NCBI RefSeq assembly: GCF_010731715.1
Contig: NZ_AP022587.1
Span: 1,674,001-1,738,000 of the forward strand
Reading direction: 5' to 3'
Source of the DNA: Mycobacterium stomatepiae
GTDB taxonomy: Bacteria > Actinomycetota > Actinomycetes > Mycobacteriales > Mycobacteriaceae
DNA length: 64,000 nt
The position numbers were made by a program, and so were the translations under genes. Under the pieces are notes generated by a model, which saw only the letters and a list, made by a program, of their open reading frames with translations, was not told where the DNA came from and made no database searches. Within the stretch, counting starts at the first letter, position 1, and every line of letters starts with the position of its first letter. Below are positions 6,818 through 32,622 of this stretch, piece by piece.

Positions 6818-7044
6818 CCCTCAAACATAGGCGGCGTTTGGCCGCTCAGCGGCAGCAATCGGCTCGACGTTCGCCTGACGACGATGGCACCCGCGACCAG
6901 CAACACACGAATTTCGGATTTTGTTGGCGCCGGAGCTATCGGAACCGGATGAATACTGTATACAGTAGTCCTTTCGCGAGCTTCGCACACCGGCTCCCGC
7001 ACCGCCGACCACGGCAGCGGACCGACGGCAAGACGAGGGAACCA
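6818..7044. other. divergent intergenic region DUF2277/PPE
   Basis: 227 bp between the DUF2277 and PPE starts. Its only clear element is the perfect palindrome at 6954-6967. No open frame here has coding character. It marks the left edge of the oxalate/glyoxylate island. Confidence 0.6.
6954..6967. promoter_or_regulatory. operator A of the ACTGTAT regulon
   Basis: Perfect 14-bp palindrome TACTGTATACAGTA, 77 bp upstream of the PPE start. It is the most symmetric of six related sites in the island (others at 18295, 22704, 26607, 26861 and 32609). The TGTATACA core is the kind of sequence bound by FadR/FCD-subfamily GntR regulators, and one such regulator is encoded at 22773. Confidence 0.7.
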
Positions 7045-8316
7045 ATGGATTTTGGGGCGTTGCCACCCGAAGTGAATTCAGGCCGAATGTATTCGGGCCC
7101 CGGACCCGCGACCCTGCTGGCCGCCTCCGCGGAGTGGGAGGAATTGGCCGCAGAGATGCACCTCGCCGCCAGTCAGTGCGAGTCGGTGGTTGCCCAACTG
7201 ATCGGTGAGTCGTGGCGGGGCTCGTCGGCGACGGCGATGACGCAGGCGGTTTTGCCGTACGCCGGATGGGTCAGGAGCACGGCCGCACGATGCGAGGACG
7301 TGGCCACCAAGGCCACCGTCGCAGCGTCGGCGTACGAAACCGCCTACGCGATGATGGTGCCACCACCGGTCATCGTGGCCAACCGCGCTCGCCTTGCGGC
7401 ATTGATTGCGAGCAACCTCGTCGGGCAGAACACGCCCGCCATCATGGTTGCTGAGGCCGAGTACAGCGAAATGTGGGCCCAAGATGCGGCGGCAATGTAC
7501 AGCTATGCGGCCAATTCTGCTGGTGTGTCCGGACTTTCATCCTTTGCTCCTCCGCCGAGCACAACCGATCCCGGTGAGGGGGCTTCGGCCAAATTGTTGA
7601 ACTCGGCGGCATCGACACTGCGAGGACTCGCCGGCCCCGGAAACGGCGCATCGATCGCGATGGGTGCCGGGGCGCCGCTGGCATCGTCGGGGATTTCTTC
7701 CTCCCTGACGATGCTGTCGCGGCTGGCCAAGACCTCCGCCAAAAGCCCGGGTACAAGTACCACCGCCGGAATGCAGGCGGCCGCCCAACTCGCCACCTCC
7801 GCGATTACCGCCCTGCTCGACATCCCCAGTAGCACCGCGCCCGAGATCGGCACCAGCGCGCTGGGTTTCGGCTCGGACGGCTTGGGCTTGGGCACCGACA
7901 TCAGCGGGTTCGCTCTCGACCTGGCCGGCTCCGGCCTCGAATTGGTCGGCGGTGACTCGCTTTTGGGTGCCGAAGAGGCGGTGCCCGCCGAACTCGGTGC
8001 GATCGGTCCGCTGGACCTGCTCAACCCATTGGCCGACCCCTGGTCGGCGGGGTTGAGCGGCGAGCCGTCGGCGGCCCTCAGTCATGCGTCCCAACTGGGA
8101 ACCCTGTCGGTGCCGCCCGGCTGGGCCGATGCGCTATCGAAGGACGCGGGCAGCCAAGGCATGCACGGTGCCGCTTCGGCGGGCTACCACGGCCCGGCAC
8201 ATCGACACGCCGGCAAGCTCCCCGTCGGTGGCATGGTGGGCCACGACGGCGGCCGACCGGCGCACCGAGTGGGCGTGCAAACCTCCCTCATTCCACGTTC
8301 ACCGATAGGAGGCTAG
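7045..8316 (+). CDS. PPE family protein (SVP subgroup)
   Basis: 423 residues. The N-terminal PPE domain (about 1-180) shows MDFGALPPEVNS with PPE at 7-9 and the W57 turn in SWRGS. The long Ala/Gly/Ser-rich C-terminal part carries GTLSVPPGWA (about 352-361), the SVP-subgroup motif. PPE proteins are exported by type VII secretion, usually as a dimer with a PE protein, and several act as substrate-selective channels of the mycobacterial outer membrane. A PE gene lies in the same island at 15694-16002, not adjacent. Operator A sits just upstream, so this gene is probably co-regulated with oxalate metabolism. Start ATG 7045 is set by the conserved MDFGALPPE. Confidence 0.95.
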   Translation: MDFGALPPEVNSGRMYSGPGPATLLAASAEWEELAAEMHLAASQCESVVAQLIGESWRGSSATAMTQAVLPYAGWVRSTAARCEDVATKATVAASAYETAYAMMVPPPVIVANRARLAALIASNLVGQNTPAIMVAEAEYSEMWAQDAAAMYSYAANSAGVSGLSSFAPPPSTTDPGEGASAKLLNSAASTLRGLAGPGNGASIAMGAGAPLASSGISSSLTMLSRLAKTSAKSPGTSTTAGMQAAAQLATSAITALLDIPSSTAPEIGTSALGFGSDGLGLGTDISGFALDLAGSGLELVGGDSLLGAEEAVPAELGAIGPLDLLNPLADPWSAGLSGEPSAALSHASQLGTLSVPPGWADALSKDAGSQGMHGAASAGYHGPAHRHAGKLPVGGMVGHDGGRPAHRVGVQTSLIPRSPIGG

Positions 8317-8438
8317 CCAAGTGCCATCGGCCAATGTGATGACCCACTTCACTTTTCGTCATAGCGGGCCACCCCACAGACCATGACAATGGGTACATCG
8401 GCGAGTCCTGACCCGATTACGCGACGGGAGGAGATCCG

Positions 8439-8843
8439 TTGATCCGACCATCGTTCGGTGACGCGTTGCGGGAATTGCTGTTCTGCACCCACCGCACCGT
8501 CGATGATGTGATGGACGCCTTCTTCGATCAGGCCTACCAGCATCGCGACAACGGAAAGTCTTACACGCGGGACGAGTTCGCCGTCCTCGCCGCGACCGCG
8601 CGCTCGGATATCGCCCACGGCGACGTGTACACGCTCGAAGAATTCCGTTTCTGGAATCGCTATGCCGCACGATTGGTCGTCGAGGTCACCAAAACCGGTG
8701 GTTCGGCCCACCATGTCGAGGTCCACGTGATCGGCCAATACTCGATCGACGGCAGATTCCTGAGGCTAAGTCAAGCTCGCATGTCGGTGCCCAGCGTGGA
8801 ATTCGTTGTGGGAGACAAGCTCCGAGCCCAACCGGTTGCCTAA
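8439..8843 (+). CDS. SnoaL-like (NTF2-fold) protein
   Basis: 134 residues; starts at TTG 8439 after a strong Shine-Dalgarno stretch GGGAGGAG (8426-8433). The pattern of a helical N-terminus (MDAFFDQAYQHRDNGKSYTRDEF) and paired beta strands with aromatic residues resembles the NTF2/SnoaL fold. That fold can be an isomerase, a hydrolase or a non-catalytic binding protein; no catalytic residues can be named. It follows the PPE gene on the same strand after 122 bp and overlaps the convergent HDAC-like gene by four bases. Confidence 0.65.
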   Translation: MIRPSFGDALRELLFCTHRTVDDVMDAFFDQAYQHRDNGKSYTRDEFAVLAATARSDIAHGDVYTLEEFRFWNRYAARLVVEVTKTGGSAHHVEVHVIGQYSIDGRFLRLSQARMSVPSVEFVVGDKLRAQPVA

Positions 8844-9769
8844 CCCTTGATCAGCTCGCCGACGTGGGCGGCGACGGAATCCGCCAGTCCCTGCAGGTCG
8901 TAGCCGCCCTCCAGCACCGCCACCAGCCGGCCGTCACAAAGCCTCTCGGCCGAGTCCATCAGCTCGCGAGTCACCCAACCGAAGTCGTCGGCAGTCATCG
9001 TCAGCGAGCCGAGGGGGTCACGCTCGTGTGCGTCGAACCCCGCGGACACCAGAATCAACTCCGGAGCGAACTTGTCGAGCGCGGGCAGTATCCGTTGCCG
9101 AAATGCCTCGCGTAACTCGTCCCCGCCGTCGCCCGGCTTGAGCGGTGAGTTGAAGATATTGCCGACCCCGGCTTCTCCTATGGCGCCCGTCCCCGGAAAG
9201 AGTGGCATCTGATGGGTGGACGCGTACAACACGTCGGAATCGGAGTAGAAGATCTGCTGCGTGCCGTTGCCATGGTGAACGTCGAAATCGACGATCGCGA
9301 CCCGCGTCAGTCCGTATTTCCGCTGCGCATGCCGCGCTCCGATGCTGATGTTGTTGAACAGGCAAAAGCCCATCGCTCGTTCGGTTTCGGCATGGTGGCC
9401 CGGCGGCCGGCAGGCCACGAAGGCGTTCTGGACCTGCCCGGTCAGCACGCTGTCGATCGCCTGCAGGGTGCCGCCCACCCCCCGCAAGACCACTTCCCAC
9501 GTCGACGGCTCCATCATCGTGTCACCGCCGTCGAGGTACACATAACCGTGCTCCGGACGGGCGGCTTCCAGGTCGTCGACGTAGCGGTTCGTATGCACGT
9601 AGCGGGCCGTGGCGAGGTCGGCCGGCTCGGCGTGCTCGCGCACCAGTGAGTCGAATTGCGGCGCACTGAGTACCGCTTCCACGATGCGGTAGCGGTCCGG
9701 CCGTTCCGGATGACCGGCGGCAGTCCTGTGGTTGGCGAAACTGGGATGGTGCAGCAGCAGGGTGGACAT
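8840..9769 (-). CDS. histone-deacetylase/AcuC-family deacetylase
   Basis: 309-residue zinc-dependent deacetylase of the HDAC/AcuC/acetylpolyamine amidohydrolase superfamily. Visible catalytic elements are RPPGHHAE (tandem histidines), FDVHHGNGTQ (zinc ligands Asp and His) and AGFDAHERDPLG (third zinc ligand), with EGGYD near the C-terminus. Bacterial members deacetylate acetyl-lysine, for example on acetyl-CoA synthetase, or small amines. It lies 120 bp downstream of glycerate kinase on the same strand and may be cotranscribed. A Shine-Dalgarno AAAGAGG precedes ATG 9769. Role in the island unknown; control of a CoA-dependent enzyme by acetylation is possible. Confidence 0.88.
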   Translation of the reverse strand: MSTLLLHHPSFANHRTAAGHPERPDRYRIVEAVLSAPQFDSLVREHAEPADLATARYVHTNRYVDDLEAARPEHGYVYLDGGDTMMEPSTWEVVLRGVGGTLQAIDSVLTGQVQNAFVACRPPGHHAETERAMGFCLFNNISIGARHAQRKYGLTRVAIVDFDVHHGNGTQQIFYSDSDVLYASTHQMPLFPGTGAIGEAGVGNIFNSPLKPGDGGDELREAFRQRILPALDKFAPELILVSAGFDAHERDPLGSLTMTADDFGWVTRELMDSAERLCDGRLVAVLEGGYDLQGLADSVAAHVGELIKG

Positions 9770-9889
9770 GGCGGCGAACCTCTTTCAGGGTCATGGGCAA
9801 CCAGACCGAATGATGATCTTCTGCCTGAACACCGTATGCCCCCAATTGCAGTACCGCCGAGGAGCCGGATCGCTGATCGATTTTCGGTA

Positions 9890-11141: not shown

Positions 11142-11320
11142 GCCGCTTTCTCAACACGCTGACACGCCCGGCGCGCGGTTGTCAAAGGCTGGGCCCACGA
11201 CATCCGCTGTGGTCATCGAATCCGCTTATCAAGTCTGACAATTCGGGTTGTACGACTCTCGCCGATTCTTGACAGGCATTGCGAACATCGCATTGACTCG
11301 TTTCGTATTTCGATGCGGCA

Positions 11321-11337
11321 ATTCCGCGATACGGAAG
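11321..11337. promoter_or_regulatory. candidate IclR-family operator 2
   Basis: ATTCCG-N5-CGGAAG, the same spacing as the repeat at 11125 with one mismatch in the outer base. It lies 36 bp upstream of the hyi ATG, overlapping the expected promoter or leader, which would suit repression. Confidence 0.5.
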
Positions 11338-11373
11338 ACGGATCCGCGGCCAGGCGAAAATGGAAGGACAGCG

Positions 11374-12234
11374 ATGGCTGGTGCGACCTATACGGTGAAC
11401 TGCTCGATCCTTTTCACCGACCTGCCCGTGCTGGAGCGGCCGGGCGCGGCTCGAACGGCAGGCTTTGAAGCGGTGGAGTTCTGGTGGCCGTTCATCGAAG
11501 CGACGCCCCCGGAGCCCGACATCAAGGCCTTCGTCCGCGCCATCGAGCAGGCCGGGGTGCAGTTGTCCGGACTGAACTTCTTCGCCGGCTACATGGCCGG
11601 CGGCGACCGGGGAATCCTGTCGGATCCCGCACTGACGACCAAGTTTCGCGAAAATGTGCAAGTAGCCATCGAGATCGGCGAAAGCCTAGGTACCCGGGCC
11701 TTCAACGCCCTGTACGGCAACCGCATCGACGGCATCGCGCCGGCGGTGCAAGACGAGGTCGCGGCCAAGAATCTTGCCTACGCGGCGCAAGCCGCACAGC
11801 GCATCGGCGCGACCGTGCTCGTCGAGCCGGTCAGCGGCGCGCCCCGCTATCCCCTCGAGACGGCGGCCGATGCGGTTCGCGTCATCGACCACGTGCAAGC
11901 CGAGGCGGGTGCCAACAACTTGCGCCTGTTGGCGGATCGGTATCACCTGTACGTCAACAACGACGATGTGACCGCGGCCCTGCTGTCCAATTACGAACGG
12001 ATCGGGCATATTCAGATCGCCGATGCGCCCGGGCGCGGGGAGCCGGGCACGGGTGAGATTCCGCTGGGAGAATATCTCGCCATCTTGCTGGGGCGTGACT
12101 ACAGCGGCTACATCGGCTTGGAATACAAGGCTTCTCGGCCCGACACCTTCGACTGGTTGCCGCTGGCCGAACGAGGTCGCGGAGCGGTCAACATCGAATC
12201 CCTGAAGACACTGACAGGAACGAGGAATCAGTGA
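11374..12234 (+). CDS. hyi: hydroxypyruvate isomerase
   Basis: 286-residue TIM-barrel isomerase of the Hyi family, interconverting hydroxypyruvate and tartronate semialdehyde. Visible landmarks: TVNCSILFTDLPVLER, FEAVEFWWPF, LSGLNFFAGYMAGGDRG, LVEPVS, YHLYVNNDDV and HIQIADAPGRGEPGTGEI, which contain the usual Glu/Asp/His metal and acid/base residues. The start ATG 11374 has GGAAGGA upstream and matches the family N-terminus. First gene of the hyi-glxR-gcl-iclR operon; its TGA overlaps the glxR GTG. Confidence 0.93.
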   Translation: MAGATYTVNCSILFTDLPVLERPGAARTAGFEAVEFWWPFIEATPPEPDIKAFVRAIEQAGVQLSGLNFFAGYMAGGDRGILSDPALTTKFRENVQVAIEIGESLGTRAFNALYGNRIDGIAPAVQDEVAAKNLAYAAQAAQRIGATVLVEPVSGAPRYPLETAADAVRVIDHVQAEAGANNLRLLADRYHLYVNNDDVTAALLSNYERIGHIQIADAPGRGEPGTGEIPLGEYLAILLGRDYSGYIGLEYKASRPDTFDWLPLAERGRGAVNIESLKTLTGTRNQ

Positions 12235-13124
12235 GCACGATCGCCTTTATCGGCCTGGGCATCATGGGCAGCCCGATGGCCTGTCACCTCGCCCGCGCCG
12301 GCCACAGCGTGATCGGTTACAACCGCTCGCCGGGTCGCGCCGCGGAGCTGATCGACGCGGGCGGGACGGAAGCGGAATCCATTGCCGACGCCGTGCAGAA
12401 CGCCGACGTGGTGGCCGTGATGGTGCCCGACTCCCCCGACGTGCAAAACGTGTTGCTCTCGGAGGGTGGTGTTTTCGCCCACACCCGGCCCTCGACGCTG
12501 GTGATCGATTTCTCCTCCATCCGCCCCGATGTCACCGCCGAGCTGGCCACGCAAGCCTCCCAGCGCGGCCTGCGGCTCATCGACGCCCCGGTGTCCGGCG
12601 GTGAGCCCGGCGCCCGGAACGCGACGCTGTCGATCATGGTCGGCGCCGCCGATGACGACTTCGCCGCTGCCAAGCCGCTTCTCGAGATCGTCGGTAAGAC
12701 CATCGTTCATGTCGGCCCCAACGGGGCGGGGCAAACCGTCAAGGCCGCCAATCAGCTGATCGTCGCGGGCAATATCGAACTCCTCGCCGAGGCAATCACG
12801 TTCCTGCGTGCCTACGGCGTCGACCTGGACGCGGCCGTCAAGGTGCTCGGTGGAGGCCTGGCGGGCTCGGCGGTGCTGGATCAAAAGGCCCCGAAGATGC
12901 TGGCACGCAACTTCGATCCCGGCTTCCGGATCGAACTGCACCACAAAGATTTGGGCATCGTCACCAGCGCCGCCCGCGAAGCCGGGGTGGTCATCCCGCT
13001 CGGCGCGGTCGTCGCGCAGCTGATGGCCTCCGCGCTGGCCAACGGGGACGGTTCTCTCGACCACTCCGGCCTGCTGCGCGGTGTCGAACGCCTGTCCGGA
13101 CAAAAGGAAGGTGGGATCCAGTGA
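12231..13124 (+). CDS. glxR: 2-hydroxy-3-oxopropionate (tartronate semialdehyde) reductase
   Basis: 297-residue beta-hydroxyacid dehydrogenase that reduces tartronate semialdehyde to D-glycerate with NAD(P)H. It shows the Rossmann motif [20 protein letters not shown], the substrate motif [13 protein letters not shown], and the catalytic-lysine helix [14 protein letters not shown]-terminal helical domain is complete. It starts at GTG 12231 overlapping the hyi stop, and its stop overlaps the gcl GTG, indicating coupled translation of three consecutive pathway steps. Confidence 0.95.
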
Positions 13125-14913
13125 CCCGGATGCGTACGGTCGACGCGGCCGTCAAGATCCTCGAAATCGAGGGCGCTACACAGACATTCGACCTGCCCGG
13201 CGCGGCGATCAATCCGTTTTACTCGGCGATGCGGGCCCACGGCGGAATTCGGCACCTACTGGCCCGCTACGTCGAGGGCGCCAGCCACATGGCCGAGGGC
13301 TACACTCGTGCCGCGCCGGGCAACATCGGCGTGTGCATCGGCACCTCGGGCCCGGCCGGGACCGACATGGTGACTGGATTGTATTCAGCCAGTGCCGATT
13401 CCATTCCCATCCTGGCGATCACGGGTCAGGCGCCCGTCGACAAGCTGCACAAGGAGGACTTTCAGGCAGTCGACATCGCGGCGATCGCGGCACCCGTGAC
13501 GAAGATGGCCATGACAGTGTTGGAACCCGGGCAGGTCCCCGGCGCCTTCGCCAAGGCGTTTCACCTGATGCGCTCGGGCCGGCCCGGCCCCGTCCTGATC
13601 GATCTGCCCATCGACGTCCAGCTCGCCGAAATCGATTTCGTCCCGGCGGCGTACGCTCCGCTGCCGGTCTACAAGCCCGCGGCGACGCACACGCAGATCG
13701 CCAAGGCGCTCGACATGCTGGTCACCGCCCAACGCCCGGTGATCATCGCCGGTGGCGGGATTATCAACGCCGACGCCGCCGAACTACTCGTCGAGCTGGC
13801 CGAGGTGCTCGATGTCCCGGTGGTGCCCACCCTGATGGGCTGGGGCACGATTCCCGACGACCACCGGCTGGCCGCCGGCATGGTCGGGTTGCAGACCGCC
13901 CACCGCTACGGCAACGCCACCCTGCTCGAATCGGATTTCGTGCTGGGCATCGGCAACCGTTGGGCCAACCGGCACACCGGCGGACTCGACACCTACCGGC
14001 GGGGCCGCCGCTTCGTCCATATCGATATCGAACCCACCCAGATCGGCCGGGTCTTCGCGCCCGATCTCGGCATCGTGTCCGATGCCAAGGCGGCGCTGGA
14101 ACTCCTGGTGGCCGCGGCGTCCAAGCGGCGGGCAGCGGGCGATCTCCCCGATTGGGCCGGCTGGGTCCACGACTGCCAAGAGCGCAAACGGACGATGCAC
14201 CGCAAGACTCACTTCGACGACATTCCGATCAAGCCGCAGCGTGTGTACGAGGAGATGAACCGGGCGTTCGGCCGTAATGCACGCTACGTCACCGCGATTG
14301 GACTCTCACAGATCGCCGGCGGTCAATTTCTGCAGGTCTTCAAACCTCGGCACTGGATCAACTGCGGACAAGCCGGGCCGCTGGGATGGACGGTTCCCGC
14401 CGCGCTGGGCGTGGTCGCCGCGGACCCCACCGCGACGGTCGTGGGTTGTCGGGTGACTACGACTTCCAGTTCCTCATCGAAGAACTCGCCGTCGGCGCGC
14501 AATTCAACCTGCCCTACGTCCATGTCGTGGTCAACAACTCCTACCTCGGGCTGATCCGGCAAGCGCAGCTCAACTTCGACATGAACTACTTCGTCTCCCT
14601 GGCATTCGACAACATCAACGCCCAGGAATCCGGTGACCATGATCTGCCCAAGGGCTACGGTGTCGACCATCGTCGGGTAGCGGAAGGATTGGGCTGCAAG
14701 GCGATCCAGGTCAGTGACCCCGCGCTGATCGCGCCGGCGCTCACACGCGCCCAGCAACTAACCCGCGAACACAAGGTGCCCGTGGTGGTCGAGATCTTCC
14801 TGGAACGAATCACTAACATCGCGATGGGCACCGACATCGACAAGGTCGTCGAACACAACGAGCTGGCGACCACCATCGACGATTCACCCACCGCCGCACT
14901 GCTATTCGACTGA
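13121..14913 (+). pseudogene. gcl: glyoxylate carboligase, frameshifted
   Basis: Gcl condenses two glyoxylates to tartronate semialdehyde and CO2 with thiamine diphosphate. The sequence aligns closely with E. coli Gcl from the first residues, including Val51 ([17 protein letters not shown]), the diagnostic replacement of the usual ThDP glutamate. Near residue 441 (14441-14449) one base is missing. The rest, with the ThDP motif [12 protein letters not shown] and [10 protein letters not shown], continues in another frame to 14913. Restoring one base gives 598 codons, the normal length. As read, translation ends at 14554 and loses the cofactor-binding domain. A real inactivating deletion or a sequencing error are both possible. 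Confidence 0.88.
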
Positions 14914-22563: not shown

Positions 22564-22703
22564 CTTGACCGTGTAAGTGCCACGAATCACGTCGCAATGT
22601 TTGCGATCTGGCATTTACCAACTCAGCCCGGCCGCATCCTGTATAAAACCTTGAGAATCGCTGCACATTTCGCGGTGCCGTAGCGGCCCAGTTGGATGTT
22701 GTG

Positions 22704-22717
22704 GACTGTATGCTACG
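22704..22717 (+). promoter_or_regulatory. operator C of the ACTGTAT regulon (gntR promoter)
   Basis: GACTGTATGCTACG keeps the left half ACTGTATGC of the repeated palindrome; the right half is degenerate. It lies 55 bp upstream of the gntR ATG, consistent with autoregulation. Confidence 0.5.
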
Positions 22718-23483: not shown

Positions 23484-24841
23484 CCGACCGGCGCCGGAGC
23501 CGTCACATCCTTGTTTCTCCGCCGTCCCGGCTGCCGCAAAAACGCCGCGGTTACCGCTGAGAGCAGCGCGCTTGCCGCCGCCAGCCAGTAGGCACCGGTG
23601 TAGCCCCAGGCGTCAATCACGCTGGCGCCCACGCCAATTCCCAGGATCGAGCCAACCAGCTTGGCGCTGTAGACGATGCCGTAATTGCTGGCGTTGTTGT
23701 TTTCGCCGAAGTAGTCGGTGGTTAGCGTCGCGAACAGCGGATAGAAAGCACCGCCGCCGAACCCGACGAGGACCGCGAAGAAGATGAAGGCGATCTCGTT
23801 CTTGGCCAGCCCGGTGTAGAGCAGACCGATCAGGGCGACGACCGACACCAGCAGCACGACCAGCAGCGTCTGCTTGCGACCGATCCGGTCCGAGACATAG
23901 CCGGTCGCCGTGCGGCCGACGCCATTGATGATCGACAGCGCGCCCGCCGATGAGGCCACGATCATCGCGCCGAAGCCGAGGTGTTTGGCGAGCGGAACCA
24001 TGTAGCTGATGCCGAACAGCGAGACACCGGTCGTGATCCCCAACGACAGCCAGATCAGCGGCAACATGCCCGTCTTGATCGCCTCCAGCGGGCTGTACTG
24101 GCGCACCGCCGGGGGATTTTTCTGCAGGCTTCTGACGTTGGCGTTGGCGTCGGCGTGCTGCAGCGGGTCGACATCGGCCGGCCACCAGTTCTTGGGCGGG
24201 TCCTGGAAATACAGGCCGCATACCGTGAGAACGATCAGCATGAATGCGCCTACCAGGTCGAGCACCCACTCGTAGGTGTTCGGGTGCAGCGCATAACTGA
24301 AGATGAAGATGAAAGGTACTGCGCCGTAGGCGAACCCGCCGCACACGAACCCGGTCTTGGCGCCGCGCCGCTCGGGATACCACTTACCGACAATGGTGAT
24401 TCCCGTCGAGTACACCAACCCGACGCCGCAGCCACCGCATACCGCGAATCCGAGGAAGGCCACGACCAGATTGCTGCTGTGCGCGACGGTGACGAAACCC
24501 AGCGCGGACAACACGGCGGCGGCCAGCATGGTGGACCTGGCCGAGGTGATTCCCTTCTCCCTCAGCCGGCCGGCGGGATAGGCGACGGCCGCCTGAAACA
24601 CCGCCCACACCGAGAGCAGCCAGAAGGTTTCGGACAGAGTCCAGCCGTGGGCGTGGCGCAGGATGTCGGCGGCGGCGCCGTAACCGTATTCAAAAACGCT
24701 GACTGCCATCATCGCGATCCACGGCAGCCAGACCATCGAAGCCCGGGATCTGCCGAGCAGGTCGCGATCGGTTTCGCCGACGCGATAGACGCGACCGTTC
24801 GCGTCGATCACCTCGCGATAGGAGGTGAGAGTTGAAGACAT
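23447..24841 (-). CDS. MFS transporter, oxalate/formate antiporter type (copy 1)
   Basis: 464 residues with about 12 hydrophobic helices. It resembles the OFA (oxalate:formate antiporter) branch of the major facilitator superfamily; landmarks are WYPERRGAKTGFVCGGFAYG, the loop FQDPPKNWWPADVDP, and RTATGYVSDRIGRKQTLLVV. A paralogue lies at 26882. Oxalate uptake in exchange for formate is the expected role given frc and oxc nearby, but other small carboxylates are possible. The start ATG 24841 has only a weak ribosome site. It is downstream of frc copy 1 on the same strand. Confidence 0.85.
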   Translation of the reverse strand: MSSTLTSYREVIDANGRVYRVGETDRDLLGRSRASMVWLPWIAMMAVSVFEYGYGAAADILRHAHGWTLSETFWLLSVWAVFQAAVAYPAGRLREKGITSARSTMLAAAVLSALGFVTVAHSSNLVVAFLGFAVCGGCGVGLVYSTGITIVGKWYPERRGAKTGFVCGGFAYGAVPFIFIFSYALHPNTYEWVLDLVGAFMLIVLTVCGLYFQDPPKNWWPADVDPLQHADANANVRSLQKNPPAVRQYSPLEAIKTGMLPLIWLSLGITTGVSLFGISYMVPLAKHLGFGAMIVASSAGALSIINGVGRTATGYVSDRIGRKQTLLVVLLVSVVALIGLLYTGLAKNEIAFIFFAVLVGFGGGAFYPLFATLTTDYFGENNNASNYGIVYSAKLVGSILGIGVGASVIDAWGYTGAYWLAAASALLSAVTAAFLRQPGRRRNKDVTAPAPVGQATPSAPSAAS

Positions 24842-25158
24842 CGTTGACTCACTTTCGGAAAAGGGCATGACGGGGTGGCTCGATGACTGCTCGCGTCCGA
24901 CGACGCGGCAACCATCGAGTTGACGGTTTGGTTTCTGGCTTCGGGGGAAGTTCGGATCCGTAGTGTCTAAGGCGGTGCACGGCCGGCGATTTCGCCCGCA
25001 CATCGCAGCCCGTTGGCCACGCCCGACATCTGAAGCCGTGGCCGGCCAGTCATGATCCGCCTCGGTCGTTCACCGAGTTGCGCGCGGCCCTCTCCCACAA
25101 CCGGGTCCTTCTCCACCGAGCCGAGGGGTCTCTAGACGAGTCTCATGCCAGTGCCAGT
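24842..25158. other. intergenic region frc1/MFS1
   Basis: 317 bp between the frc1 stop and the MFS1 start. No ACTGTAT palindrome, terminator with T-tract, or coding frame was recognised. It probably contains a promoter or leader for the transporter. Confidence 0.4.
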
Positions 25159-26388
25159 TCAGATCACGCCGGCGCTTCTGAAGCGCTGCAACTCATCTGG
25201 CGAATAACCGAGTTCCTCGCAGATCTCCTCGGTGTGCTCGCCGAGCAGCGGTGAACGCACCACATCGACGGGTGAGTCGGACAGCCGTAGCGGGCTGCCG
25301 ACGGTCTTGAACGCACCGCGCTCGGGGTGCTCGACGGTCACGATCGCGTCCAGATCAGCCAGTGTCTGGTCCTCGATCAGCTCCTTGGTGCTGAGCACCG
25401 GGCCGCAGGGCACGTTGAGAGCATTGAGCGCCTCCATGGCCTCCCATTTGGTGTGCCGTTGACTCCAGTCCTCGATCAGAGCAAAGACCTTGTCCAGCTT
25501 GGGTAGCCGGTCTTCCTGCCGGGCCCAGTCCGGATGATCGGCGAGGTCGGGCCGTCCGATCAGCTCGGCGAGCGGCGCCCATCCGGCGGGCTGAACGATG
25601 ACGTAGATGTAGTCGTTGGGGCCACCGCCTTTGGTGCGAACGGCCCAACCGGGTTGGCCTCCCCCGGACGCGTTGCCCGACCGCGGCACCTCGTCGCCGA
25701 AGCGCTCATTGGGGTATTCGTGTAGCGGGCCATGCGCCAGCTGCTGCTGATCGCGCAACTTCACCCGACATAGGTTGAGCACGGCGGCCTGCATCGCGAC
25801 CTCGACACGCTGGCCACGGCCGGTGTTGGTGCGCTGGAACAGCGCGGCCAGGATGGCGGCGACGAGTTGAATCCCGGTGCCGGAGTCGCCGATTTGTGCG
25901 CCCGTGGCAGTGGGCGGCCCGTCCTCGAAACCCGTGGTGGCCATGGCTCCACCCACCGCCTGGGCGATGATTTCGTAGGCCTTGAAGTCGACGTACTTGC
26001 CCGGGCCGAATCCCTTGATCGACGCATAGATCAACCGTGGGTTGATCTGCTGCAGCCGAGCCCAACTGAAACCGAACCGGTCGACGACGCCGGGGCCGAA
26101 GTTCTCCACCAACACATCGGAGCGCGCTACCAGTCTGCTGAAGATCTCCTGACCGTCTTCGCTTTTCATGTTCACCGTCACACTGCGTTTGTTGCAGTTC
26201 AGCATTGTGAAATAGAGACTGTCCACCTCGGGGAGGTCGCGCAGCTGGCCCCGAGTGACGTCTCCGCCGTTTGGTGTCTCGAGCTTGACGACGTCGGCGG
26301 CCAACCAGGCCAGCATCTGCGTCGCAGAGGGACCCGACTGCACGTGAGTCATATCGAGCACCCGAACGCCGTCTAATGCCTTACCCAT
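25159..26388 (-). CDS. frc: formyl-CoA:oxalate CoA-transferase (copy 1, intact)
   Basis: 409-residue class III CoA-transferase moving CoA from formyl-CoA to oxalate. It shows GVRVLDMTHVQSGPSATQML, VVKLETPNGGDVTRGQLRDL, VLVENFGPGVVDRFGFSW, IGDSGTGIQLVAAIL (catalytic Asp) and the glycine-rich loop GGGQPGW, which separates Frc from other CaiB-type enzymes. It is about 55-60% similar by eye to the copy at 28327, so it is not a recent duplicate. The ATG 26388 follows GGGGAGA. The divergent promoter region holds operators D and E. Confidence 0.92.
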   Translation of the reverse strand: MGKALDGVRVLDMTHVQSGPSATQMLAWLAADVVKLETPNGGDVTRGQLRDLPEVDSLYFTMLNCNKRSVTVNMKSEDGQEIFSRLVARSDVLVENFGPGVVDRFGFSWARLQQINPRLIYASIKGFGPGKYVDFKAYEIIAQAVGGAMATTGFEDGPPTATGAQIGDSGTGIQLVAAILAALFQRTNTGRGQRVEVAMQAAVLNLCRVKLRDQQQLAHGPLHEYPNERFGDEVPRSGNASGGGQPGWAVRTKGGGPNDYIYVIVQPAGWAPLAELIGRPDLADHPDWARQEDRLPKLDKVFALIEDWSQRHTKWEAMEALNALNVPCGPVLSTKELIEDQTLADLDAIVTVEHPERGAFKTVGSPLRLSDSPVDVVRSPLLGEHTEEICEELGYSPDELQRFRSAGVI

Positions 26389-26606
26389 GAGATCTCCCCT
26401 GAGGTGTGTCGTTATGCCTGAAAGGTCGCGTCGTGCCGGGCACCGAGAGCTCCACTGCCCGTGTGGATTCGGATCAATGGCCGGGAGGCGATGCCCACCA
26501 CTACCTCAGCTTTCTGCGCCTGCTGCCCGTCCGCTTCGCCGCACAGCAGGAGACCGCGAAGCAGCGGATGTGGCTGCAACGGCCGGAGCGTTCGTTGCCT
26601 TCTGCA

Positions 26607-26620
26607 GACTGTATACCGTA
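26607..26620 (+). promoter_or_regulatory. operator D of the ACTGTAT regulon
   Basis: GACTGTATACCGTA, 12 of 14 positions as in operator A. It also contains the short palindrome ATACCGTAT (26613-26621). It sits 219 bp upstream of frc1 and 262 bp upstream of MFS2. Confidence 0.62.
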
Positions 26621-26860
26621 TACGAACAGTGTCCCCAATCACAGGCGAATTGTCTAGCGCCGTACCTTCGCCAATACCTATCAGACACCGGCACCGATGG
26701 AATGGACGTCGCCAAGCCCCGGCGGGCAACGAATTAGCCGAACAAAGTTGTTTGCCGAATAATGTTGCGCCAGCTCCGCTCACGAGCCGAAAGCCCCTCA
26801 TTCTCGAGGTCGCTCCCCTGCCCCTGGACACACAGTGTGATCAGTAGTACAACAAATGCA

Positions 26861-26874
26861 TACTGTATGTATAG
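26861..26874 (+). promoter_or_regulatory. operator E of the ACTGTAT regulon
   Basis: TACTGTATGTATAG, part of ATACTGTAT (26860-26868). It ends seven bases before the MFS2 ATG and touches the Shine-Dalgarno sequence, so a bound protein would block transcription at the start of the mRNA or the leader itself. Confidence 0.6.
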
Positions 26875-26881
26875 GAGAGTT

Positions 26882-28228
26882 ATGATATCCGGCGGTGAGG
26901 GAAACTCGGGCCTACAAATTCGAGCACATGGCTGCTCGTACCGTGTCGGCGAACGCCCGCACGACATCATGGCGCGCTCGAGAAGCTGGATGCTGTGGCT
27001 GCCATGGACGGCGATGGCCGGTATCAGCGTGCTCCAATTCGGCTACGGTGTCGCGGTTATCGCCGTTCAGCAGCCGCATCACCCGCTTTCCCCCGGCGCC
27101 TTCTGGGTACTGGCGTTGTGGGTGCTCTTCCAGGCGGGCGCCACCGCGGCCACGCCACCGCTGAGACGGCGGTGGAAAATTCACCCGTCGGCCGCGATGT
27201 CGATCGGCGCTGTCTTGTCCGCCCTTGGCCCGCTGACGCTTTCGTGCACGGGCAATCTCGCACTCGCGGTGCTGGGCTACTCCGCGTTGTGCGGTATCGG
27301 CGCCGGGATGGTTTACGCCACTTGCCTTTCCACTGTTGCCCATTGGTATCCCGAGCAACGGGGTGCGAAAGTCTCGCTGGTGTCAGGCGGGTTCGGTTGC
27401 GGCGCGGTCCCGTTCGTCGTGTTGTTCGCTTTCGCACTCCACCCCCACAACATCGGGCCGGTGTTCACCGCGGTCGGGGTGTGTGTCCTCGTCGTAGTGA
27501 CGTTGTGCGGCGCCCTTTTTCGCGACCCACCCGCAGACTGGTGGCCGGCTGAGGTCGACCCTCGACTGTGGGGCTTCGACAAGCGGATAAACCGCAGCCT
27601 ATGGGGCAATGCGCCGGCGATACGCCAGTATTGGCCCAGTGAGGCCGCACGCACCTCGGCCTTTTGTGTCGTCTACGCCATTGCGGTGGTGGCATCGGCC
27701 GCGGCGCTGTTGAGCATCGTCTACGTGCCGGCCATCGCCATAACCCATGGCTTGTCGCTGGCCGTCGGCGCGATCGCCGTTGCGGTGCTGGCACTGGTCA
27801 ACGGCGGGGGACGTATCATCGCGAGCCGGTTCTCGGACCGATACGACAGACGTCAAACGTTGAGTCCCGCACTCGGAGTCGAGGTTTTGGCGCTGGTGGG
27901 CCTGGCGTACTCGGCCTCGGCGGGCTCCACCGTCGGATTCGTCACCTTTGCCGCGCTCGGCGGGCTGGCCGGCGGCGCCTTCTATTCGCTGTTCATCAAT
28001 CTCGTCGCCGACTACTTCGGCGAGCGCAGCGCGGTCGGGAACTTCGGGCTGCTCTACAGCGCCAAGGTCTTCGGCGGTCTGATCGGGGTGGGCCTGCCCG
28101 CGCTGTCGCTGCCTGCCGGACGGCTGGGAGCGGCCTTCGTCGCCGTCGGCTTGCTCTGCTGGTGCGCCGCCATCGCACCACGGTGGCTTCGGCGCCCCGG
28201 TTATCCCGTTTGCCGCCTGTCGAATTGA
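26882..28228 (+). CDS. MFS transporter, oxalate/formate antiporter type (copy 2)
   Basis: 448 residues, about 12 hydrophobic helices, paralogous to the transporter at 23447. Shared landmarks: YRVGERPHDIMARSRSWMLW near the N-terminus, HWYPEQRGAKVSLVSGGFG, FRDPPADWWPAEVDP, and DRYDRRQTLSPALG. The homology of the two N-termini supports the ATG at 26882, which has AGGAGAG three to four bases upstream. Substrate by context oxalate or formate. A hairpin follows the stop, before the convergent frc2. Confidence 0.83.
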   Translation: MISGGEGNSGLQIRAHGCSYRVGERPHDIMARSRSWMLWLPWTAMAGISVLQFGYGVAVIAVQQPHHPLSPGAFWVLALWVLFQAGATAATPPLRRRWKIHPSAAMSIGAVLSALGPLTLSCTGNLALAVLGYSALCGIGAGMVYATCLSTVAHWYPEQRGAKVSLVSGGFGCGAVPFVVLFAFALHPHNIGPVFTAVGVCVLVVVTLCGALFRDPPADWWPAEVDPRLWGFDKRINRSLWGNAPAIRQYWPSEAARTSAFCVVYAIAVVASAAALLSIVYVPAIAITHGLSLAVGAIAVAVLALVNGGGRIIASRFSDRYDRRQTLSPALGVEVLALVGLAYSASAGSTVGFVTFAALGGLAGGAFYSLFINLVADYFGERSAVGNFGLLYSAKVFGGLIGVGLPALSLPAGRLGAAFVAVGLLCWCAAIAPRWLRRPGYPVCRLSN

Positions 28229-28250
28229 CACATTCGGCACGTGGCAACGA

Positions 28251-28283: not shown

Positions 28284-28326
28284 CCCGCCGTGACCCGGCG
28301 ATTTGAGGGGCTCGGCCCGCCCCTCA

Positions 28327-29583
28327 CTAGATGACTATCGCTTCCTTCCGCCATCCGGCGATGGTGTCCGAGTCATAACCCAATTCGGCCAACACCTCGT
28401 CGGTGTGCTCACCCAGCAGCGGTGCACCCTTGATCTCGGGCTTGAAGGAGGAGAACTTGATCGGGCTGCCGACCGTCAAGAACGTGCCGCGCCCCTTCTG
28501 CTCGACCTCGACAATGGTCCCGCTCTTGCGCAGATCCTTGTCCTCGGCGAGATCCTTCATGGACATCACAGGCGCGCACGGCACCTCCCACTCGCGCAGG
28601 ATGTCGACTGCTTCCCACTTCGTCTTGTCCGCCAGCCACTTCTCGATCTCGGCGAAGATGTCGAAGAGTTTGTCCTGACGGGCCCGCGCGGTGCTGTAGC
28701 CCGGGTCGTCGACCCACTAGGGGCGACCGATGGCCTCGGCAGTGCGCTTCCAGTTCTGCTCTTGGATGGTGAAGTAGATGTAGGCGTTGGGGTCGGTCTC
28801 CCAGCCCTTGCACTTGACCACCCAGCCGGGCTGGCCGCCACCGCCGGCGTTGCCGCCGCGCGGCACCGCGTCGCCGAACGTGCCATTGGGGTACTGCGGG
28901 TACTCCTCCAGGTAGCCCACCCGCTCCAGGCGCTGTTGGTCGCGCAGCTTGACCCGGCACAGGTTGAGCACGGAGTCCTGCATGGACGCAGACACCTTCT
29001 GGCCCTTGCCGGTCTTGTCGCGCGCGATCAGTGCGGTCAAGATGCCGATCAGGAGGTGCATACCGGTGTTGCTGTCGCCGAGGGCGCCCCCGGCCACGGT
29101 CGGCGGCCCATCCCAGAAGCCGGTGGTGGAAGCGTTGCCGCCGGCGCACTGCGCGACGTTCTCATAGACCTTGAGGTCGTTCCACGACGAGTCGTCGTTA
29201 AAGCCCTTGACCGAACCGAAGATCAGCCGCGGGTTCCACTCCTGGATCTTGTCCCAGGACAACCCCATTCGGTCCATCGCCCCTGGAGCGAAGTTCTCCA
29301 CCAGCACATCGGCCTGGCGGATCAGCTTCTCCATCACCTCGACACCTTGCGGAGATTTCGTGTTGATCGCCAGCGAACGCTTGTTGCTGTTGAGCATCGT
29401 GAAGTACAACGCGTCGACATCCGGTATGTCGCGCAACTGATTACGCGTCACATCGCCACCAGTGGTCCGCTCGACCTTCAGGACGTCCGCTCCGAACCAG
29501 GCGAGCATCTGGGTGCAGGCGGGCCCCGCCTGCACCCCGGTGAAGTCGATGACCTTGATGCCAGACAACGGCAGTTCGCTCAT
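28327..29583 (-). pseudogene. frc: formyl-CoA:oxalate CoA-transferase (copy 2), in-frame TAG
   Basis: Full-length Frc frame of 419 codons interrupted by TAG at codon 289 (28717-28719). Before it: [68 protein letters not shown] and the loop GGGGQPGW. After it the same frame continues WVDDPGYSTARARQDKLFD and ends in GAPLLGEHTDEVLAELGYD. The interruption falls where homologues have a charged residue (GRPxWVDDPGYS), so GAG to TAG is the simplest change. It is the second gene of oxc-frc, 81 bp after oxc. ATG 29583 is preceded by AAAGGAAA. Inactive unless TAG is read through or is a sequencing error; copy 1 is intact. Confidence 0.87.
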
Positions 29584-29664
29584 CACAGATTTCCTTTCTT
29601 TCTCGTGCTTTCGAGTTGTCTTATATCGACGTCTTGCCTGGTAAGCAGGCATCCCAGCGCACTT

Positions 29665-31389
29665 TCAGCCCGGGTTGGTGATCCCCTTGGGATTGAGGTG
29701 AGCGATGTTGCCACTCTCGGTCCCGTCCGACGGATCGATCAGGCAATCGATCAGTGCCGGCCGCCCCGACGCCAGGGCCTCCCGCAGCGCCGCGGCGACC
29801 TCGTCGGGCGTTTCGGCCCGGTAACCCGCACCGCCGAAGGCCTTGATCATGAACTCGTGGTGGGCCTCCAGCGCCGTCGGCGCCGGGTCGTCTGATCCCG
29901 AGTTCTCGTCACCGCGATACACACCGCTGTTGTTGAGGATGACGGTGACGATCGGCAGCTTGTAGCGGCAGATTGTCTCCAATTCCATTCCGCTGAAACC
30001 GAAGGCGCTGTCACCTTCGATCGCCACCACGGGTTCACCGGTCTCCACGGCGGCCGCGATCGCATACCCCATCCCGATGCCCATCACGCCCCAGGTCCCG
30101 CTGTCAAGGCGCCGGCGCGGCCGGTACATCGCGATCGTGCTGCGCGCCAGGTCGAGTGCGTTAGCCCCCTCGTTGACCACACATACTTGCGAATTGTCTT
30201 GCAACACATCGCGGATCGCCTGCAGTGCGCCAAGGAATTTCATTGGCGCAGCAACGCGGGCGGCGGCCAGACGGTCCGCCATCTTGGCGACATTTTGCGC
30301 CGCCTTGGCTGCCAGTTCCGCACGCCATTGTGCCGACGCGCTGATCTGACCCGGCTTGGCGCGGTCCACCAGTGCCTGCATCACCGAACCGATATCGCCG
30401 ACCAGCGGGGCCGCGATCGGCTGATTGCTGTCCATCTCGCTGGCTTCGATGTCGATCTGGATGAACTTGGCGCCCGAATTCCACTGCGGCGCATCGCCAT
30501 GTCCGAGTAACCAGTTCAGCCGCGCCCCCACCAGCAGGACGACATCGGCGCGGCGCAGCGCCAGCGATCGGGTCGTGGCCACCGACTGCGGGTGATCGTC
30601 GGGCAGCAGCCCTTTGGCCATCGACATCGGCAAGTAGGGCACCCCGGTGCTTTCCACGAATTCTTTGATCTGCTCGTCCGCCTGTGCGTATGCAGCGCCT
30701 TTGCCCAGGACGATCAACGGTCGCTGGGCGGTGGCGAGCAATTCGATCGCCGCATCTACCGAGTCGAGGTCGGGCAGTTGGCGTGGCGCCGGATCGACCA
30801 CGCGCCAGAGCGTTTCGGCAGCGGACTCGGCGTCGAGAACCTCGCCCAACACGGCTGCCGGGATGTCTAGGTAGACCCCACCGGGACGCCCGGAAGCCGC
30901 CGTGCGAATTGCCCGCGCCACACCACGGCCGATGTCCTGGGCCCGAGACACCCGGTAAGCCGCTTTGACGAAGGGTCGGGCCGCGGCAAGCTGATCCATT
31001 TCCTCATAGTCGCCACGCTGCAGATCGACGAGATGGCGCTCACTTGAGCCCGAAATCTGCACCATTGGAAAGCAATTGGTCGTCGCATTGGCCAGCGCCA
31101 CGAGTCCGCTGAGAAATCCGGGTGCTGATACCGTCAAGCAGATGCCGGGCTTCTGGATCAGGAAACCGGCGGCCGCCGCGGCGTGTCCCGCGGCGCTCTC
31201 GTGACGAAAACCGATGTAGCGGATACCCGAGGCCTGCGCGGTCCGCGCCAAGTCGGTGATGGGAATGCCCACCAGCCCGTAAATGGTGTGCACATCGTTG
31301 AGCCGGAGCGCGTCGACCACCAGATGTATCCCATCGGTGAGGGCCCCGGCGTCTCCAGCCTCGGTGTCTTCGATGGGAGCGGCGGTCAT
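29665..31389 (-). CDS. oxc: oxalyl-CoA decarboxylase
   Basis: 574-residue ThDP enzyme converting oxalyl-CoA to formyl-CoA and CO2. Visible: GFRHESAAGHAAAAAGFL (ThDP glutamate), NCFPMVQISGSSERHLVDLQ, GDYEEMDQLAAARPFVKAAY, a central domain with LGKGAAYAQAD, and the C-terminal ThDP-Mg motif GDSAFGFSGMELETICRYKL ending in NNSGVYRG. These are characteristic of Oxc, not generic acetolactate synthases. Start ATG 31389 (MTAAPIEDTE) follows AAAGAGAAG. It is first in an operon with frc copy 2. A LysR-type palindrome lies about 105 bp upstream. Confidence 0.93.
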   Translation of the reverse strand: MTAAPIEDTEAGDAGALTDGIHLVVDALRLNDVHTIYGLVGIPITDLARTAQASGIRYIGFRHESAAGHAAAAAGFLIQKPGICLTVSAPGFLSGLVALANATTNCFPMVQISGSSERHLVDLQRGDYEEMDQLAAARPFVKAAYRVSRAQDIGRGVARAIRTAASGRPGGVYLDIPAAVLGEVLDAESAAETLWRVVDPAPRQLPDLDSVDAAIELLATAQRPLIVLGKGAAYAQADEQIKEFVESTGVPYLPMSMAKGLLPDDHPQSVATTRSLALRRADVVLLVGARLNWLLGHGDAPQWNSGAKFIQIDIEASEMDSNQPIAAPLVGDIGSVMQALVDRAKPGQISASAQWRAELAAKAAQNVAKMADRLAAARVAAPMKFLGALQAIRDVLQDNSQVCVVNEGANALDLARSTIAMYRPRRRLDSGTWGVMGIGMGYAIAAAVETGEPVVAIEGDSAFGFSGMELETICRYKLPIVTVILNNSGVYRGDENSGSDDPAPTALEAHHEFMIKAFGGAGYRAETPDEVAAALREALASGRPALIDCLIDPSDGTESGNIAHLNPKGITNPG

Positions 31390-31493
31390 TACAACTTCTC
31401 TTTCCGGCGGTAGACGCCTTGGTCGAATTTCTTTCTCGCTCTTCACTTTTCCTCAATCTCAAAGCCACGTCCAAGACCTGATGGCACTCATCA

Positions 31494-31510: not shown

Positions 31511-31561
31511 ACGGTCCGCTGCGGTCCGGAGTTTCAGACAACTCGGTTATTCGCGAAGCGA

Positions 31562-32548
31562 TCAGGCCACAAAAGATCCCCTCACCGCGGTACTCGCGAC
31601 GGTCGCGCCCGCATCGAATTCACCGTCCACGTCTTGGCCCGGGTAGGTAAAATCCTCGCGGCCAAGGGGTGCGCCCACCGCCACGTTCAAAAATGCCCTT
31701 GCCGCAGCAGAACCCGGAGCAGAGGCATGGATCGCGATCGCGATCGGCGCCCGTTGATCCGGCTCGACCAAGCGCAAACCCCGCATTGCGCCGGTCATCG
31801 GCATCGAACGAAACCACGTGTGCGGCACCACGCTTGCCCACGCACCCGTGGCGACGTGAGCGTAAAGCGATGCCATCGAGTCGGTCTCGATCTGCGGTAC
31901 CACCGCGGCGCCGACGTCGGCGAAAGCATTGTCGATGAATTGCCGAAATCCGACGTCCGGCGCCAGGAGCGCAAGCGGCAGCTGGGCCGCTTCCGACCAG
32001 GTAATGCTGGTCGCCGCCGACACCAGCTGCTTTCCCGCCACCAGCAGCACGCACTGTTCCTCGTAGAGCGGCACCACTTCCAGGTCCGAGCGCTCGTGCG
32101 CATCGAAATGCGCAATGGCGGCGTCGAGCTCGAAAGAGCGCAGCTGGCGCACCAATTCTGTGGTCGGAAAATGGGATGTGACCTTCACCCGGGCCAGTGG
32201 GTGCAACGAACAAAAGGCCGCGATCGGCAGCGCCGTCATCGTCGATACCGCCCGCCCGGACCCCAATCGCAACACGCCCGAAATGCCCGACCGCAATGCG
32301 GCCGCTTCGGCTACCAGACCGTCGTGAACCGCGAGAACCCTTTTGGCCCACACGACAAGCCGTTCACCCTCCACCGTGAGACCCTCGAAGTTTCGTCCGC
32401 GATTGATCAACATGACGTTGAGTTCGCGTTCCAGCTTCGCAATGGATGCCGACAGCGCCGGCTGGGAGACGTAGCACGCCTCGGCCGCGCGCGCGAAGTG
32501 TCGCTCCCTCGCCACCGCAACGAAGTACTCGAGTTGACGTAGCAGCAT
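31562..32548 (-). CDS. LysR-family transcriptional regulator
   Basis: 328 residues. N-terminal helix-turn-helix MLLRQLEYFVAVARERHFAR, CYVSQPALSASIAKLERELN, then the effector-binding domain with ISGVLRLGSGRAVSTMTALP and LAPDVGFRQFIDNAF. It lies upstream of oxc-frc2 on the same strand, with a T-N11-A palindrome between it and oxc. A role as co-inducer-dependent activator of oxalate genes is inferred from position. Its own promoter region carries operator F. Confidence 0.92.
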   Translation of the reverse strand: MLLRQLEYFVAVARERHFARAAEACYVSQPALSASIAKLERELNVMLINRGRNFEGLTVEGERLVVWAKRVLAVHDGLVAEAAALRSGISGVLRLGSGRAVSTMTALPIAAFCSLHPLARVKVTSHFPTTELVRQLRSFELDAAIAHFDAHERSDLEVVPLYEEQCVLLVAGKQLVSAATSITWSEAAQLPLALLAPDVGFRQFIDNAFADVGAAVVPQIETDSMASLYAHVATGAWASVVPHTWFRSMPMTGAMRGLRLVEPDQRAPIAIAIHASAPGSAAARAFLNVAVGAPLGREDFTYPGQDVDGEFDAGATVASTAVRGSFVA

Positions 32549-32608
32549 GAAGGCTCCTCCTCGCCGGCCGACCCAGCCCGCTGATGGCCAGTCGTAAACG
32601 ACTCAGCA

Positions 32609-32622
32609 GACTGTATGCAGTA
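32609..32622 (+). promoter_or_regulatory. operator F of the ACTGTAT regulon
   Basis: GACTGTATGCAGTA, with inner arms ACTG/CAGT, 12 of 14 positions as in operator A. It is 61 bp upstream of the lysR start and 91 bp upstream of the divergent PAS gene. It marks the right edge of the island. Confidence 0.65.

Follow-up and report, generated by a model that had tools for sequence, protein, structure and literature searches.

A conserved hexamer operator in the oxalate and glyoxylate island of Mycobacterium stomatepiae, with a GntR-family protein as its likely regulator

The promoters of an island in the genome of Mycobacterium stomatepiae that, judged by its genes, serves the use of oxalate and glyoxylate share a conserved operator. 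We consider it very likely that the copies of this element are the operators of one FCD-type GntR protein controlling the genes for oxalate entry and breakdown. The island lies in a stretch of 64 kb, here called the window (positions 1,674,001–1,738,000 of a genome that forms one contig of 6,210,822 bases), and was assigned to this pathway because it holds frc, oxc and gcl together with glyoxylate-route, panE-like, transhydrogenase and dehydrogenase-like genes.

A Conserved Operator Lies in the Promoters of the Island

An earlier, sequence-only reading of the window had listed six related 14-mers sharing an invariant ACTGTAT. All six were found in their places and on their strands, and the observation of a conserved operator is confirmed. 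ACTGTAT occurs seven times in the 64-kb window against 1.13 expected; all seven copies fall within the listed sites, one of which carries the heptamer on both strands, and none of 100 shuffles of the window reached seven. The sites are thus real, whereas the register of the 14-mer was slightly off: the sites align on ATAC-N-GTAT, and the 14-mer was therefore replaced as the operator unit. The basic unit consists of the hexamers GCATAC and GTATGC flanking one free base (GCATAC-N-GTATGC). The full element is GNATACNGTATNC with further hexamers at 7-bp spacing, and ACTGTAT is the join of two hexamers within it. A seventh site, before a deacetylase-like gene, had been overlooked. The operators and operator-like sites of the window are as follows.

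6951–6970, + strand: operator of three hexamers at 7-bp spacing, GAATACtGTATACaGTAGTC, before the PPE gene; the exact 13-mer is 6951–6963
9827–9839, − strand: operator with one mismatch, before the deacetylase-like gene; exact in four relatives
18299–18311, no strand: perfect operator GCATACAGTATGC, between the panE-like gene and pntAA
22634–22646, + strand: weak upstream operator-like site of gntR, two mismatches
22701–22713, + strand: operator-like site of gntR, two mismatches, contains TGTATGCT
26604–26623, no strand: operator of three hexamers, GCAGACtGTATACcGTATAC, in the frc/mfs2 intergenic region; the exact match is 26611–26623
26858–26870, + strand: operator with one mismatch, just before the inferred mfs2 start
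32606–32632, no strand: operator with a run of hexamers at 7-bp spacing, GCAGACtGTATGCaGTATGCaTTATTC, between lysR-oxc and the PAS gene

The gap from operator to start codon measures 81 bases for the PPE gene, 57 for the deacetylase-like gene, 58 for the panE-like gene, 105 for pntAA, 59 for gntR (126 from its second weak site), 215 for frc, 11 for mfs2, 57 for lysR and 80 for the PAS gene.

To describe the element we collected 148 distinct sites, picked by the exact ATACNGTAT core in the window, 20 stretches from the genus and the 79 wider loci introduced below; sites with identical 45-base surroundings and sites too near the ends of a locus were left out. Their consensus is AYTGCATAC-N-GTATGCART, with information spread over about 19 bp. 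As both strands were counted, the symmetry of this table is built in; the perfect palindromes show it directly. The outer two positions of GTATGC are G in 69% and C in 79% of the sites. With the criterion of at least four of the six positions of GTATGC on the better side, 58% of the sites have a third, directly oriented hexamer at 7-bp spacing, compared with 1–7% at the seven other offsets tested. Read in inverted orientation, it appears in 30% at the 7-bp offset, which is expected because the hexamer is nearly palindromic, and in 19% at another offset.

The Operator Is Specific to the Island in Its Own Genome

The three exact matches to GNATACNGTATNC in the whole genome all lie in the 25.7-kb island. 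A genome-wide scan could have told against the regulon by returning many equally good matches elsewhere, and this outcome was not seen. With up to one mismatch there are 52 matches (21 for the reversed pattern, used as control), nine of which are in the window. All nine lie between 6951 and 32625, inside the island, in accordance with the earlier statement that the core flanks hold no good copy. For independent positions, at least nine of the 52 would fall within 25.7 kb with a probability of ∼1e-12; some of the nine form overlapping pairs, and with six separate operators counted instead the probability is ∼6e-8.

Within the genus, a GntR homolog was found at E values up to 1e-40 in 16 of 148 genomes, 12 of them (own genome included) at 58% identity or more. 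The exact palindrome GCATACNGTATGC occurs in 22 of the 148: in 11 of the 12 genomes with a GntR protein of at least 58% identity and in 11 of the 136 others (Fisher p 6e-10). The 11/12 count was made by hand, as were 25/34, 22/29 and the split of the reversed control below. The one exception among the 12 is a 3.2-Mb genome (G088) with the island in pieces; its loci (L029, L030) hold many broken fragments of the island, yet gntR is open there, at 91% identity.

The sites recur at the same promoters. In all 11 genomes whose regions were covered, frc and mfs2 have an operator with no more than two mismatches upstream of the gene or at its start. Exact operators precede panE-like/pntAA in the window and in six relatives (G131, G058, G143, G065, G108 and G069), and near-exact ones precede lysR-oxc in the window, G131 and G143. 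The closest relative, G131, with a GntR protein 97% identical, has five exact matches genome-wide, all at orthologous promoters, and all four exact matches of G143 lie on the contig of its island. Together the 11 genomes hold 34 exact sites versus seven for the reversed control. Island genes or contigs could be matched to 25 of the 34; three more (L068, L072, L074) were inspected and showed no island homolog, and the remaining six had no locus.

The overlooked site also recurs: G131, G143, G065 and G111 have an exact operator before the deacetylase-like gene, and G076 has this gene with no site within two mismatches. The deacetylase-like gene is thus a conserved member of the predicted regulon, with an operator in five of the six genus genomes seen, that of the window having one mismatch.

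The Operator and the GntR Protein Occur Together Beyond the Genus

A wider set was drawn from the best 80 matches of the GntR protein in named genomes. It comprises 79 loci centred on the homologs, of about 20 kb each and 1.42 Mb in total, and includes Micromonospora, Actinoplanes, Amycolatopsis, Streptomyces and Nocardiopsis; the loci contain close relatives and are hence not independent. Exact GNATACNGTATNC was found 71 times, in 53 of the 79 loci, and the reversed pattern not once. Permuted palindromes gave 0.5 sites on average and 12 at most. This 13-base control is the valid one, since the permutations of the 9-base core include the unchanged half-site and their mean of 11.3 is too high.

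Among 296 genomes of the class, frc of this type (E values up to 1e-160) was found in 24. All 23 of these other than the own genome have the GntR protein, at 53–62% identity, as do all 11 genomes of the genus with frc (E values up to 1e-150). The 23 class genomes hold 29 exact sites, against five for the reversed control, and for 22 of the 29 frc or gntR is no more than about 15 kb away.

The Predicted Regulator Is an FCD-Type GntR Protein

The GntR protein is of an ordinary kind. It carries an N-terminal GntR winged-helix domain (PF00392, 71.5 bits, cut-off 27) and a C-terminal FCD domain (PF07729, 91.2 bits, cut-off 24.3), and it reaches no NCBIfam cut-off. Its structural model has a mean predicted local distance difference test score (pLDDT) of 88.8, with residues 1–19 below 50 and residues 89–234 helical, and the folds that match it best belong to GntR regulators (one from Brucella, PmiR, McbR and VanR). 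The residues of the recognition helix were considered as an explanation of the unusual operator and set aside as too uncertain.

The histidines H149, H191 and H213 are conserved without exception in the 28 aligned sequences. Histidines of this kind coordinate a metal in FCD proteins, and the metal aids the binding of small carboxylates. For this reason the inducer would most likely be a small carboxylate of the pathway, with oxalate or glyoxylate as first choice.

The promoter of gntR suggests that the protein is probably self-regulating. In 65 of the 79 loci (8.4 expected) the 500 bp preceding the gntR match contain a site with at most two mismatches, and in 23 (3.7 expected) they contain an exact core. 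Expected counts come from random 500-bp pieces of the same loci, and some of the sites lie between divergent genes. In the window and seven relatives the region upstream of gntR is poorly conserved except for the TGTATGCT block, invariant in all eight aligned sequences, and the start region.

A PPE Gene Is a Predicted Member of the Regulon

The first operator of the window stands before a PPE gene. The sequence-only reading had assigned this promoter to PPE/DUF2277; the PPE gene is there, and the neighbor is DUF1802. The small open reading frames (ORFs) tested beside the PPE gene gave no Pfam match at E values up to 1, and DUF2277 was not found.

A search with the full PPE protein in five genomes at E values up to 1e-90 returned G131 only. 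A second copy, in L079 (Mycobacterium sp., 1068–2313), has an interrupted frame; its neighbor is pyk, and a perfect operator immediately precedes the start codon. The protein search was replaced by a pattern consisting of the operator core, 31–91 bp and a PPE-type start, which was run on 396 genus genomes. Six contain it (G000, G131, G526, G640, G449 and G516) and none contains the reversed control. The spacing had been set from the window, G131 and L079, and the upstream sequence of G516 is identical to that of L079, so that only G526, G640 and G449 are new finds. The GntR protein is present at E values up to 1e-70 in 37 of the 396 genomes. All six genomes with the pattern belong to a group of ten whose GntR is at least 86% identical (one of these ten matches is partial), and none belongs to the other 27 (Fisher p 4e-11 for 6/10 versus 0/386, the six genomes being related and three having shaped the pattern). 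In each of the six the pattern lies within about 16 kb of gntR, and their PPE proteins are 60–86% identical to that of the window.

PPE51 of M. tuberculosis and M. marinum is reported to be needed for glycerol and glucose uptake and to reach the outer membrane by ESX-5, and the porin MspA can reportedly replace ESX-5 for growth on glycerol (PMC12607722, PMC12977502). At the level of the PPE family the likeness is that of a PPE protein tied to the uptake of a small carbon source across the outer membrane; the substrates, glucose and glycerol, differ. The operator before the PPE gene, taken with the role of PPE51, suggests that this gene encodes a candidate channel for oxalate or a related acid. 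We tentatively propose, as a possibility on the doubtful side of even, that the PPE protein of one mycobacterial group acts as a dedicated oxalate (or formate or glyoxylate) channel of the outer membrane, induced by its substrate and wired to the pathway through an Actinobacteria-wide GntR hexamer operator.

Several points weigh against the channel. Shared regulation is not transport; the L079 copy is interrupted; and the pattern is missing from four of the ten genomes whose GntR is at least 86% identical. The relatives without such a PPE gene may be fast growers with porins. It is a serious prospect, just short of even, that the operator is real and the PPE gene a bystander, or that the PPE protein serves the envelope in a way that has nothing to do with uptake. 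The interrupted frame and the four genomes without the pattern fit this, as does the report that PPE51 affects membrane integrity as well as uptake (PMC12607722). A bystander is harder to reconcile with the operator being the only long invariant block across the six PPE upstream regions, and with the L079 gene, which sits elsewhere in the island and still has a perfect operator.

Proposed Mechanism and Alternatives

In the mechanism that we propose, GntR dimers would bind to the hexamers, probably with at least two dimers at an operator, and would act as repressor of frc and its transporter, mfs2, lysR-oxc, panE-like/pnt, the genes for the PPE, deacetylase-like and PAS proteins, and their own gene, gntR. 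The repression would be lifted by a small carboxylate of the pathway, most likely oxalate or glyoxylate. In one mycobacterial group the circuit would have taken in a PPE gene, with the PPE protein acting as a surface channel that passes the acid through the outer membrane. The sites themselves, their conservation and their association with gntR and frc are direct observations; we infer the binder, repression rather than activation, the use of several dimers and the inducer.

A number of observations count against this mechanism. The reversed control is commoner in the genus than the motif (37 versus 22 of 148 genomes); it shows no link to GntR (4/12 versus 33/136). An exact palindrome is also present in 11 of the 136 genus genomes that lack a GntR of at least 58% identity, including G081 with its 44% homolog. 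Most of these palindromes are inside long ORFs, but G063 and G023 share an intergenic one. Seven of the 23 class genomes with frc and GntR, five of them from family f18, have no exact site. No genome with frc and without GntR was found among the genus and class genomes searched; frc and GntR are thus never apart, and their contributions cannot be separated. The sites at the gntR promoter are weak in the window, with two mismatches each. Finally, the intergenic region of the window upstream of hyi-garR-gcl holds no site within two mismatches, and therefore the whole island need not be one circuit. This operon may respond to an IclR regulator instead. The earlier proposal of a single, self-regulated GntR circuit thus holds in the tie between motif and GntR, which comparison bears out, and may not extend to hyi-garR-gcl; as an interpretation of the sites the GntR circuit is largely supported.

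The form of the operator is a further point against GntR as the binder. The sequence-only reading had expected a typical FadR-type site. Operators of the FadR subfamily follow NyGTM-N0-1-KACNy with TKGT/ACMA boxes, and many groups have a weaker extra box 7–12 nt from the centre (PMC4494728). The protein of the window resembles this subfamily in its GntR winged helix and FCD domain, in its link to oxidised carbon substrates and in extra half-sites off the centre. The operator differs: its core is ATAC-N-GTAT, its hexamers are exactly 7 bp apart, and there is no TKGT/ACMA palindrome. AC-N-GT is the reverse of the GT..AC order, and single hexamers (GTATAC/GTATGC) resemble GT-N2-AC only in part, so the expectation of a FadR-type site has to be dropped. 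The misfit lowers the fit of the operator and leaves the FCD membership of the protein untouched, because NanR and BioR are also exceptions (PMC4494728) and GntR as the binder is itself an inferred step.

It is improbable, in our view, that the LysR or IclR regulator of the island, rather than GntR, binds the sites. Both are encoded in the island, which also speaks against a single GntR circuit; one operator stands directly before lysR, an arrangement repeated in many Streptomyces loci; and LysR proteins can bind ATAC-N7-GTAT. However, in many of the 79 loci the roughly 20 kb covered contain frc, oxc or panE-like genes but no match to iclR or lysR. In loci without such a match, among them most of the Amycolatopsis loci and those of the Micromonosporaceae, operator sites persist beside the GntR homolog. 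The frequent operator-like sites before gntR point the same way. What the loci with the motif have in common is GntR, whereas LysR and IclR genes are present in some and missing from others; GntR is therefore likely the binder.

It is most improbable that the sites, instead of being operators, are promoter elements held in common, for example −10 boxes like TACTGT, or copies spread by duplication: TACTGT does fit a loose TANNNT −10 box and the sites are AT-rich in a GC-rich genome, but their information extends over about 19 bp, their distances to the start codon vary (40–84 bp for PPE alone) and exact matches in 6.2 Mb are confined to the island of one pathway.

Comparison With Known Systems

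The closest printed parallel to the operator is that of Escherichia coli NanR, of which three dimers bind (GGTATA)3 cooperatively (PMC8012715). NanR too is an FCD-type regulator with closely spaced direct hexamer repeats, as found here, and its NCBIfam model is the second-best match of the GntR protein, below threshold (78.7 bits, cut-off 260). The present operator differs in having GTATGC/GTATAC at 7-bp spacing instead of TGGTATAW, and in standing before oxalate genes and not sialic acid genes. By analogy, a multi-dimer assembly similar to that of NanR may form on the present operator.

The nearest solved structures by sequence and fold are PmiR of Pseudomonas aeruginosa, 7u5q of Brucella, Atu1419 (VanR) of Agrobacterium and McbR of E. 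coli; the likeness is one of sequence and fold, with 24–31% identity in the best fold matches. HypR of Streptomyces coelicolor is likewise an actinobacterial FadR-type repressor, and it represses its own promoter more weakly than its targets; its motif, CTNTGC(A/C)ATGTCAC, and its role in hydroxyproline use are different (PMC6608401). With known oxalate catabolism the island shares frc and oxc, both of which pass NCBIfam equivalog cut-offs. Here, by contrast, they share an operator with the GntR gene and with transhydrogenase, panE-like and PPE genes.

The GntR circuit is a local catabolic regulator, a known kind. No regulator like this one is described in the titles and abstract openings listed from the literature searched, outside which most subscription papers fall, and a term search of two papers on oxalate-using bacteria (PMC10192776, PMC12927642) gave no mention of GntR, regulation or mycobacteria. 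The operator architecture, its breadth and the membership of a PPE gene seem to be new. What they provide is a conserved operator, island-specific in the genome of the window, with a likely regulator for oxalate use in Actinobacteria, and a PPE protein predicted in several genomes to be tied by regulation to a defined catabolic pathway. In our judgement the substrates of individual PPE proteins are largely open, and a shared operator makes a specific, testable substrate prediction; if this holds true, a catabolic operator before a PPE gene could assign substrates to other orphan PPE proteins.

Genes of the Island and Further Observations

The genes of the island are listed below.

7045–8316, + strand: PPE gene, predicted regulon member (PF00823, 212.1 bits, cut-off 26; PF12484 PPE-SVP, 32.3 bits, cut-off 23)
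8840–9769, − strand: histone-deacetylase-like gene, predicted regulon member
11248–14554, + strand: hyi-garR-gcl; gcl runs on in another frame to 14910
16015–17196: pyruvate kinase gene (pyk), after the panE-like gene
17215–18240, − strand: panE-like gene, 2-dehydropantoate 2-reductase family, candidate oxalyl-CoA reductase
18417–21204, + strand: transhydrogenase genes pntAA-pntAB-pntB
21205–22474, + strand: 2-hydroxyacid/formate-dehydrogenase-like gene, frame split in two
22773–23483, + strand: GntR-family regulator P0001, which has an FCD domain and is proposed to bind all the sites
23447–25003, − strand: MFS transporter, matching oxalate/formate and lactate carriers below cut-off
25159–26388, − strand: frc, formyl-CoA transferase (TIGR03253, 630.4 bits, cut-off 504.2)
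26882–28228, + strand: mfs2, second MFS transporter, with an inferred start, matching oxalate/formate and lactate carriers below cut-off
29665–31446, − strand: oxc, oxalyl-CoA decarboxylase, downstream of lysR (TIGR03254, 981.9 bits, cut-off 739.4)
31562–32548, − strand: LysR-type regulator
32713–33210, + strand: PAS-domain protein gene, predicted regulon member

The PAS label of the sequence-only reading was correct; the PAS ORF is followed by an enoyl-CoA hydratase gene in another frame. The gcl product passes its curated cut-off (TIGR01504, 840.2 bits, cut-off 711.2). The island also encodes a glycerate kinase and hydroxypyruvate-isomerase-like and tartronate-semialdehyde-reductase-like proteins, names inferred from domains. 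In some relatives the match of mfs2 to a longer ORF crosses the operator.

Ten of the 37 genus genomes with GntR have two copies. In G143, G069 and G065 (L032–L035) both copies (68–76% and 58–61% identity) lie in one oxalate cluster, and these clusters carry duplicated MFS or frc genes; the two copies possibly share one operator. A paralogous GntR group with 44% identity is present in G098, G027 and G081 (L042, L043, L044), where related sites such as GTATACAGTACAC and GTATACAACATAC lie near the regulator gene in a similar arrangement in the three genomes, with a solute-binding-protein-like ORF (named by eye) nearby in L042.

The intergenic palindrome of G063 and G023, a perfect GCATACAGTATGC at position 1501 of L053/L055, lies between methyltransferase-like and fmt-like ORFs (named by eye); these two genomes gave no GntR match at E values up to 1e-40. 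G052, which has no close GntR, carries a pair of overlapping perfect sites, GCATACGGTATGCATACTGTATGC, outside long ORFs (L052, 1501–1524).

A 530-aa ORF at 28303–29895 of the window overlaps the end of oxc and has matches of 59–68% identity in five genus genomes; no Pfam family was found for it at E values below 0.1. Both gcl (13121–14910) and the dehydrogenase-like gene (21205–22474) are split over two frames in the window, and their counterparts in G131 are single ORFs of 602 and 413 aa; the splits are either real decay or sequencing errors. The panE-like gene is a candidate oxalyl-CoA reductase by analogy, because a panE2 gene serves as one in an engineering paper (PMC12686821).

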